Shown here: positions 18,146 to 21,851 of the stretch, piece by piece
Layout of the letters: every line of letters starts with the position of its first letter
How positions within the stretch are numbered: position 1 is the stretch's first letter
Origin: Parabacteroides goldsteinii
GTDB lineage: Bacteria > Bacteroidota > Bacteroidia > Bacteroidales > Tannerellaceae
Direction of reading: 5' to 3'
Length of the DNA: 41,329 nucleotides
Assembly: GCF_015550595.1 (NCBI RefSeq)
Contig: NZ_JADNBB010000041.1
Location: 1-41,329, forward strand
The notes under the pieces: model-generated
What the model saw: the letters and a program-made list of their open reading frames with translations, nothing else
What the model was told of the DNA's origin: nothing
The model's database searches: none
Program-made: the position numbers and the translations under genes

Positions 18146-19687
18146 TTACCATTTGTAATTAAAACCAAAGCTCAAGAGTTCATTGATCTGTAAATAACTG
18201 TCGAAGTCTTCGTTTTTCGCGATTCCGTCGTCATAACGTAAGTTAAGTGAAATGATGGTTGAGAAGAATCGGCTGATCGCCATATTCAGTCGGTTTTCAA
18301 ATTCACCCTGGATACGTTTGTAGTCTGTCATATAATACAGGCGGGAATACCAGATGATATTCCGGCTAAACTGAAATGTCATAGTTGCATTGACGGTAGA
18401 ACCGAATAAACTTTGCTTGTACGGGAATTCTTCCTGGCCCTTTTTTTTCTGGAAATGACGACCCAAGTCGATATCTTTATCTAATGTACGTACGTACGTA
18501 TAAGATAAAGGTGCGAGGTTGGCACTTAAAGTTACTTTTTTATGTTTTGACGACGCGAATGTTTTATCTAGGTCGTATTTCATACCGAGACCGATATTGA
18601 TACTGAAAGGAGAGAGCAGTCCGGCTAGCTTAACATCCTGGTTTTCTGCATAACTGCTGAATAGCTGGGTTTTGAAATCCACATCCAGTGTATAGTACCA
18701 CTTATTGAACGCTTTATAACCTAAGTTGCTATAAATACGGAACACATCATCTCCGACTTTATAGTCACGTAATGTGTCTTTAGGTGCTGTATATAAGTTA
18801 TTCTTTATTTCGAGCGAGTTCGTAAACTTTATTTTATCCTTATTATAATTAAATGTAAACAGTTCACGGTTTGTCAGGTTCAGCGTACTTACACCTCCTT
18901 TATGCCAGTTGGGGGAGATATAGTTTTGTGCAAACTGAATAGCACTTTCAAAATGAGAAGTCCAGTAGCGTATTTCCGGAATGAATTTTACCGGGGCATC
19001 TACGTCGCTGAAATCGGCTTCGCTTTCTATTTTGATTAGTTCCGGTTCGTAATGGGTTTTCTTGATTACTTTGGCTATAACTTTATCCTGAGGTAGGTCT
19101 CTCATCGAATAACGGAAGTAATCCGGATAGTTCGATTGTACATATTTATATGCTTTGTCTTCTATCTCCTTTTTCAACTCTTCCTGCTTGAATAAAGTAT
19201 CGGGAGTGAACGGTAAAGGTAACTGTTCATTCTTTACCCAGAAGTTTTCTTTATAAAATGTAAGATCCTTCGGTAATAGTTCGCCTTTAAACACGATCGG
19301 CAAGAACAACGGGTTGACGATCACTGTATCGCGAAAGGTCATATTATTATCGAATATGGTAGAGGCGTCACGTACCAGGCGGGCCCAGTACATGGCTTCA
19401 TCAGATATTTCCACTTCGTCCTTTTTAAGGAAACGAAGTAGATTCTCATTGGGTACGACCGGAGCGGAATACGACCGGTTCTGTTTTTCGAACTGTCCTC
19501 GCAGACTTATGATATTGTCCAGGTCCGGATCTTCTATTTCAATCATGGGGATAGTATCCGGTGCGTCACGTTGTGTTGTATTATTATTGACATTAGTTCC
19601 GGTAATAACAACCTTTTCCTGCGCTTCTGCCAGGCTTGCCAGTGATGTAAATATAGAAAACAAAATGAAGTACCTCTTGATAACCAT
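18146..19687 (-). CDS. Exported DUF3078-like protein, probable outer-membrane beta-barrel
   Basis: The 513-residue protein has a Sec signal peptide (cleavage near SLAEA/QEKV). A non-repetitive, Pro- and charge-rich segment runs to about residue 230. The C-terminal half is made of alternating short beta-strands (WHKGGVSTLNLTNRELFTFN, YNKDKIKFTNSLEIKNNLY, FNKWYYTLDVDFKTQLFSSY) and ends in FGFNYKW, an aromatic C-terminus typical of outer-membrane barrels. The W-x-KGG block resembles DUF3078 proteins, which are common in Bacteroidetes and lack a known function. It is encoded upstream of rseC with a 100-base gap. The coding strand has an A8 run (18441-18448) and 3.5 copies of a 4-base repeat (18486-18500). 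Confidence 0.82.
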   Translation of the reverse strand: MVIKRYFILFSIFTSLASLAEAQEKVVITGTNVNNNTTQRDAPDTIPMIEIEDPDLDNIISLRGQFEKQNRSYSAPVVPNENLLRFLKKDEVEISDEAMYWARLVRDASTIFDNNMTFRDTVIVNPLFLPIVFKGELLPKDLTFYKENFWVKNEQLPLPFTPDTLFKQEELKKEIEDKAYKYVQSNYPDYFRYSMRDLPQDKVIAKVIKKTHYEPELIKIESEADFSDVDAPVKFIPEIRYWTSHFESAIQFAQNYISPNWHKGGVSTLNLTNRELFTFNYNKDKIKFTNSLEIKNNLYTAPKDTLRDYKVGDDVFRIYSNLGYKAFNKWYYTLDVDFKTQLFSSYAENQDVKLAGLLSPFSINIGLGMKYDLDKTFASSKHKKVTLSANLAPLSYTYVRTLDKDIDLGRHFQKKKGQEEFPYKQSLFGSTVNATMTFQFSRNIIWYSRLYYMTDYKRIQGEFENRLNMAISRFFSTIISLNLRYDDGIAKNEDFDSYLQINELLSFGFNYKW

Positions 19688-19848
19688 AATACCTTATATT
19701 TTACACTCTTTAAGTATCTAGGGTGCGAAATTAGATAAAAAGTATGAGATGTGCTAATCTTTTACATGATATAACAATCTTAACTTATCTGTTTTTATAA
19801 CGGGTAGTTAAACAAAATGTTATGTAAGTCAGAACTTTATATGCTGAT

Positions 19849-19936
19849 GCCTTTCAACTAAGTTTTATATACCTTTCAACTAAATGTTTTGTTACCTAAA
19901 ACTATTATTTTTTATGCATACAACTAAGTATAAGGT
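19849..19936. repeat. Degenerate 22-bp tandem array, four units
   Basis: AACTA recurs at 19856, 19878, 19900 and 19922, exactly 22 bp apart. Units one and two share CCTTTCAACTAA in full (19850-19861 and 19872-19883), unit three keeps ACCT and AACTA, and unit four keeps CAACTAAG. Each core sits at unit positions 8-12. The array abuts and overlaps the 23-bp array on its right. Confidence 0.6.
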
Positions 19937-20020
19937 GTACTACTTATTATCTATTAGCTGTACTACATATATTATATAACATGTACTATATATATATTAT
20001 AAGGTGTACAGATTATTATA
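19929..20020. repeat. Degenerate 23-bp tandem array, four units
   Basis: GTAC recurs at 19937, 19960, 19983 and 20006, exactly 23 bp apart. In all four units TAT is at unit positions 1-3, A at 5 and TGTAC at 8-12, with an A/T tail. Units one and four share ATAAGGTGTAC in full (19930-19940 and 19999-20009). The core is partly palindromic. Function is unknown: protein-binding array, transcription control or remnant. Confidence 0.7.
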
Positions 20021-20166
20021 TGTATATCCTATTACTGATGAATACTGAGTTGTAATCCGGTTGTTAGTTTTATGGGAAGCGAGAAATAGTTTTCATGCAT
20101 GTAGTATTTACCGGATGCCTATGCGGTTGTTTGTATTAAATTAGGGTCGAAAAAACTTCCATACCC

Positions 20167-20196
20167 TTGTCGTCTGAATGAAAATGACTAACTTTG
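20167..20196 (+). promoter_or_regulatory. Promoter of pyrG-yidC
   Basis: TTG at 20167-20169 and TAACTTTG at 20189-20196, with a 19-base spacer, match the Bacteroidetes -33/-7 consensus. Transcription should start near 20203, leaving a leader of about 45 bases. Confidence 0.65.
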
Positions 20197-20234
20197 CGGT
20201 TTCGAAATGCAAGTGAGCAATTAAAGATAATTAA

Positions 20235-21851
<1,617 letters not shown>

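Follow-up and report, generated by a model that had tools for sequence, protein, structure and literature searches.

The 559-bp intergenic region between pyrG and a divergent DUF3078 protein gene of Parabacteroides goldsteinii carries short motifs that recur at fixed steps of 22 and 23 bp. What kind of sequence is this, and does it serve the gene beside it? A reading of the DNA made from its letters alone (hereafter, the sequence-only reading) had described two adjoining arrays upstream of pyrG, and had proposed for them (i) a likeness to iterons, (ii) a row of sites for a DNA-binding protein, and (iii) a possible role in nucleotide control. We address these proposals in the window (the whole stretch of DNA analysed, 41,329 nt in length), in the genome that it comes from (G000), and in related genomes. 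The features of the region are, from left to right:

18146..19687, minus strand: gene for a DUF3078 protein of 513 aa, the divergent left neighbour
19688..19784, minus strand: conserved block adjoining the DUF3078 gene; it is also present in P. gordonii, where this array is missing
19856..19929, plus strand: left arm, with AACTA at 19856, 19878, 19900 and 19922 (step 22 bp)
19930..20021, plus strand: centre, four 23-bp units with TGTACTAC-like cores and GTAC at 19937, 19960, 19983 and 20006
20064..20107, minus strand: right arm, the inverse of the left arm, with TAGTT at 20065 and 20087 (step 22 bp)
20149..20246, plus strand: conserved block adjoining pyrG, holding a TAnnTTTG -7-like site at 20189
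20247..21851, plus strand: pyrG, encoding CTP synthase (534 aa, GTG start)

The site at 20189 is one that we take to be a promoter-like -7 site. All eight positions given earlier for AACTA and GTAC proved exact, and the proposed context of GTAC, TATnAnnTGTAC, contains it at four of the four centre sites. On the plus strand of the intergenic region, neither AACTA nor GTAC occurs anywhere outside these eight sites. The description in two arrays was correct for both and stopped short of the whole, which comprises four AACTA at 22 bp, four GTAC at 23 bp and a third, inverted arm of two TAGTT at 22 bp, and which, as argued below, appears to be a member of a dispersed element.

The claim that the arrays exceed chance was borne out. 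At a lag of 23, the best stretch has 49 of 69 bases identical. With any lag from 8 to 60 and each of four spans allowed, the observed phasing score was equalled in 0/1000 dinucleotide shuffles of the whole intergenic region and in 0/2000 shuffles of the AT-rich stretch alone. For the 22-bp part by itself (any lag from 8 to 40), the score was reached in 0/2000 shuffles at spans of 44 and 60, and in 13/2000 at a span of 22; three AACTA at 22 bp arose in 0/5000 shuffles, and the inverted TAGTT pair at 22 bp in 6/5000 shuffles of the right flank. Tandem Repeats Finder, an independent method, reports 19929-20021 with a period of 23 and, on the same window, does not call the 22-bp part. The palindromy of the window units is not significant (p 0.378, column permutation), and no match was obtained for the window in Rfam at gathering scores or for the gap in phage records. 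The phased repeats 5' of pyrG are genuine.

Two familiar classes of repeat find no support here. The units are contiguous and degenerate, as opposed to the identical repeats and unique spacers of CRISPR, which the sequence-only reading had rightly discounted. Its suggestion of replication iterons is not supported: the five neighbours checked are ordinary chromosomal genes (DUF3078, CTP synthase, YidC, RseC and an Fe-S protein) with no rep gene among them, and the 559-bp gap is without a DnaA box (TTWTNCACA).

Several observations concern the flanking genes themselves. A GTAC tetranucleotide repeat of 3.8 perfect copies lies within the DUF3078 coding sequence (window positions 18486-18500). The first 600 nt of this gene are 96.5% identical to those of G037 and the next 600 nt 68.4%, while the same two parts are 83.2% and 87.9% identical to P. 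gordonii; the drop in identity to G037 inside the gene suggests that it is a mosaic, with recombination having occurred within it. Over 600 nt of pyrG, identity to the window is 97.5% in G037 and 92.2% in P. gordonii, the latter being, at 91% identity for the DUF3078 protein, the closest named relative in a list of four matching loci. The pyrG start had no BLAST match in E. coli genomes. Two pyrG homologues from other Bacteroidales (L099 in G090 and L108 in G082) contain one in-frame TAA each, which could be a sequence error or something else.

The array has counterparts elsewhere in the genus. Thirty-eight genomes were searched for the centre only (pattern GTACTACnTAT-12-GTACTACnTAT, at most three mismatches, with the reversed pattern as control), and nine of them contain it. 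Counting overlapping matches on both strands, genomes G012, G013 and G014 have 27, 36 and 35 (reversed control 1, 0 and 1), which correspond to 23 places (5, 10 and 8, respectively); G037 has five (control 1), and G000 has two, both of them in the present array (control 0). The control reaches four matches elsewhere (G009). In the three genomes with many copies, the family motif is ATAnGTAGTACTACnTAT at a 23-bp step. Twelve of the 23 places were examined, and in every one the centre is flanked by two or more AACTA at 22 bp on the left and two or more TAGTT at 22 bp on the right, so that the order AACTA at 22 bp, GTACTAC at 23 bp, inverted TAGTT at 22 bp is common to the window and all 12 loci. 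Since the arms are absent from the search pattern, this link between window and family is not circular.

A consensus of 17 copies shows AACTAA arms around GTAGTACTAC units, of which the outermost is degenerate. The flanks of different copies also align, mostly at 70-90% over 50-130 bp among the matches listed; among the listed alignments of at least 350 bp, non-orthologous places align over 350 to 544 bp, while a few places occupy orthologous positions in different species. In some copies (L257, L258, L259 and L184), a palindromic module, GGTGTCGG...CCGACACC, lies to the right of the GTAGTACTAC element. BLAST of the window in the genus genomes recovers only itself and G037 (the pyrG gap at 88%, and a second place on contig C7 at 76%), giving one locus in the window's own genome and two in G037, and the distasonis-type element yields no alignment to G000 at 1e-5. 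We infer the membership of the window copy from its motif, order, orientation and step rather than from BLAST.

The arm motif alone, as three AACTA at 22 bp, occurs in 17 of the 38 genomes; the window's own genome contains it at this array and nowhere else, against one match for the reversed control. Genome G026 contains it 20 times on several contigs (control 0), with a different unit that is often AACTATAATC or AACTATGTT, and may have a family of its own at this step. With the reversed control, G031 yields 10 matches. The family copies adjoin genes for GTP cyclohydrolase I, topoisomerase, class-I (R) tRNA synthetase, DXP synthase and FecR; in this survey of gene context (names read by eye, five flanking proteins checked with Pfam), no common function was found.

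Comparison of orthologous gaps reveals that copies are present in some species and absent from others. G012, G013 and G001 all lack the copy that G014 has at 407k: in their orthologous gaps, the two flanks are separated by 0, 46 and 32 bp, respectively, whereas the distance in G014 is about 420-450 bp. A second copy, G013:C2:798k, was not found at the orthologous position in G012, G014 or G001; the gaps there hold 0.7-2.3 kb of other sequence, and are thus not clean empty sites. For the two copies together, absence was seen in 6/6 comparisons. Three further arrays in the window's own genome were compared with G037 and P. gordonii: that at C11:180468 is aligned in G037 and missing from P. gordonii at the orthologous position, that at C11:386887 is aligned in G037 on one side only, and that at C11:381310 had no match. 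At the one locus inspected for it (G014:407k against G012, G013 and G001), there is no clear target-site duplication. The 17-copy consensus and the G014:407k comparison show no sharp terminal repeat, and do not define exact ends. No transposase or binding protein linked to the element was found.

The pyrG gap itself shows the same turnover. Among 30 DUF3078 loci, pyrG is adjacent in 12, and it is in these 12 genomes that the check put forward by the sequence-only reading, namely whether spacing is kept while bases drift, can be read. The outcome was striking. Seven of the gaps hold a significant array at lag 22, 23 or 46 (equalled in 0/500 shuffles in six of them and in 4/500 in G035), and the arrays are of five types (G000/G037; P. 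gordonii; G003; G004/G005; G035), while the remaining five gaps (G017, G023, G034, G016 and G008) have none. When six of the array strings (G000, G009, G003, G004, G005 and G035) were compared, the sole match was between G004 and G005. By eye, the G004 unit GAAGTACTTC is similar to GTAGTACTAC, and arrays that appear different in the pyrG gap need not be unrelated. The G037 gap is 96.6% identical to that of the window apart from having exactly one 23-bp unit fewer. In P. gordonii, the blocks of about 100 bp on either gene side are conserved, and the difference from the window is confined to the middle, where a different array is found. Conserved sides around a differing middle fit a site that is tolerated between two promoter regions better than they fit a control element of pyrG, and the array is probably a bystander in the free stretch between the two blocks. 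With arrays of five sequences in seven of the 12 gaps and none in the other five, a dedicated pyrG role is unlikely.

Arrays of this step were also sought irrespective of sequence, in intergenic regions of at least 100 bp from eight partly sampled Parabacteroides genomes (crude ORF rule of 100 aa; lags 10-60; z of at least 5). The best phased match falls at lag 20-24 (40 regions) or at the doubled step, lag 41-48 (13 regions), in 53 of 460 regions and at other lags in 13, making 66 strong matches in all, where shuffles predict 3.2 regions at any lag. Six other Bacteroidales gave 5/139 regions in the same two ranges and five at other lags; E. coli K-12 gave 0/74, and one region at lag 12. The window's own genome has 26 matches in 231 intergenic regions, lags 21, 22 and 23 accounting for 2, 11 and 3 of them. 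Summed autocorrelation over all sampled intergenic DNA, a blunter measure than per-region phasing, shows a modest excess at lags 21/22, which are in the top eight, below lags 6, 9 and 7. The arrays mostly have 2-6 units, many of them three, and their sequences differ by eye. Units are palindromic (p of at most 0.05 against column permutation) in 20 of 43 arrays with periods of 20-24, three of the 43 being from other Bacteroidales.

Palindromic units invite the question of whether their two halves pair. If they paired, as RNA or as cruciforms, compensatory change would be expected. In 45 core sites (among them three from the window and, from other genomes, a few with four mismatches), the variable symmetric position (n-n) is Watson-Crick in 8, against 12.0 expected if the two bases were independent; the other departures comprise 55 that are one-sided and four that are two-sided, two of these being complementary. 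Similarly, 20 palindromic arrays contain 12 compensated unit pairs, against 18.8 when shuffled. There is no excess of compensatory change, and RNA hairpins within units are not supported. Units that are often palindromic, with arms that do not co-vary, favour dimeric protein sites or neutral satellite DNA over RNA hairpins, and symmetric arms that vary independently at a two-turn step are the pattern expected from a row of dimeric protein sites.

We therefore favour, with a probability of roughly 0.6, the following account: what lies upstream of pyrG is a copy, by now diverged, of a short dispersed element that is non-coding and intergenic (left arm, GTAGTACTAC-type centre, inverse right arm), one of a class of fast-turnover arrays of 21-23 bp whose units are sites for a dimeric protein, and pyrG is a bystander. 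The two-turn unit would be the site of a dimeric DNA-binding protein, conceivably a recombinase/transposase or a nucleoid protein; packing of the protein along the helix would hold the step while the bases drift, and the arrays would turn over quickly between Parabacteroides genes. On this point the sequence-only reading fares in two ways: its row of protein sites at a fixed step would still be the leading mechanism, while the role tied to pyrG is not supported.

The main rival to a row of protein sites is a neutral minisatellite without a binder, in which slippage or recombination lengthens and shortens the arrays and the 22-bp step is a product of the way in which duplications come about. 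Such a satellite accounts for much of the data, including (i) the exact one-unit difference between the window and G037, (ii) the presence, absence or replacement of arrays at orthologous gaps, (iii) the independent change of the unit arms, and (iv) the lack of significant palindromy in the window units. However, slippage has no obvious preference for 21-23 bp, yet 40 of the 66 strong matches lie at lag 20-24 and 13 at 41-48. Palindromic units (20/43) are also left unexplained, as are inverted arms in a fixed order at 12/12 places. We consider this a possible but doubtful explanation of the element.

That the array is transcribed and acts as RNA, either as a row of hairpins or as one long stem between the arms, we hold to be quite unlikely. 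On both strands, each of the five family members tested folds better than its shuffled versions (z -3.9 to -9.0); the window copy shows no such signal (z +1.1 and +0.2) and, as noted, no Rfam match. For the long stem, the covariation score over 17 copies is 0.149 versus 0.132 and is equalled in 4/500 shuffles, and 94.2% of cells are paired, which is equalled in 8/500; this signal is weak, the same shuffle test being passed by some unconstrained related sets, and the RNAalifold covariation term for the stem is only -0.63. Within units, the counts given above (8/45 against 12.0; 12 against 18.8) run against pairing. Very unlikely, finally, is an upstream regulatory array for pyrG, the nucleotide control once proposed: the array does lie upstream of the promoter-like site of pyrG and some array occurs in 7/12 pyrG gaps, but sequences differ between genomes, five gaps have no array, that of the window is replaced in P. 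gordonii, family copies adjoin unrelated genes, and arrays in the survey are equally frequent in convergent (10/55) and divergent (17/97) gaps and rarer in tandem ones (23/255; stretch ends, 3/53).

Two known systems come closest: bacterial tandem repeats with a constant size of 20-23 nt, and BrickBuilt, a 23-nt repeat of Porphyromonas gingivalis, a species of the same order, Bacteroidales, as Parabacteroides. Subirana and Messeguer described repeats of 20-23 nt, constant in size and variable in sequence, called them enigmatic, and suggested a nucleoid protein or a small RNA (PMC8161180). As characterized in the sections of that paper drawn on here, these repeats resemble ours in having a unit near two helical turns, a mostly non-coding location, species-specific families, and several sequences of the same size in one genome, the last of which is also true of the arrays in the window's own genome. 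They differ in that the Parabacteroides units are often palindromic and form short, degenerate arrays, in which pairing within units has not been kept, and in that a single dispersed element with inverted arms brings together modules of 22 and 23 bp. The search rule in the same sections is at least four repeats per array; the window has four degenerate units in its centre and four in its left arm, while many other arrays have three. The main text of a 2019 survey, the part of it used here, is without the terms Bacteroid, Porphyromonas and Parabacteroides (PMC6749651).

BrickBuilt is a 23-nt minisatellite inside a MITE (PMC4596501; a further source is PMC5771137). Compared by description only, with the portions of the first paper that describe it, BrickBuilt and the present element share 23-nt units without spacers, an intergenic location and multiple copies; most BrickBuilt copies, moreover, have a leader and/or tail and lie beside diverse genes, including folE and argS. 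Repeats of about 23 nt with conserved flanking segments, intergenic and multi-copy, are likewise found in G012, G013 and G014. In contrast, the small inverted-repeat ends described for BrickBuilt were not found in the Parabacteroides element; BrickBuilt has a single unit consensus and arrays of as many as 22.8 units, whereas the Parabacteroides arms are themselves 22-bp arrays, inverse of each other. REP/BIME sequences, in the account of them used here (PMC3733652), are also small, palindromic, intergenic repeats, and the GTAGTACTAC core happens to contain GTAG, but the Parabacteroides element has a regular tandem step of 22/23 bp. A REP/BIME system with its RAYT was rejected: the Y1 transposase domain (PF01797) has no match in G000, G012 or G014, and has four in G013, one in G009 and one in G037. 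Three of the four matches in G013 (contigs C2 and C4) contain an in-frame stop. Literature on intergenic repeats of Bacteroidales or Parabacteroides held nothing on this element among the matches listed.

What, then, would the arrays mean for Parabacteroides? A wider idea, which we judge unlikely, is that in this genus, and perhaps in other Bacteroidales, a protein oligomer reads two-turn steps of DNA; selection would keep the 21-23-bp spacing while the palindrome was repeatedly replaced, even at the pyrG gap, like a code co-evolving with its factor. At a more immediate level, about one in nine of the sampled Parabacteroides gaps holds an array of this enigmatic repeat class. A bait is at hand in the palindrome ATAnGTAGTACTACnTAT, which three genomes carry at 23 places with a step of 23 bp, as are a test that speaks against RNA hairpins within units and one orthologous gap in which five different arrays are found. 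With these, the question of a binder can be put to a direct test, and an unexplained class of bacterial repeats becomes easier to test.
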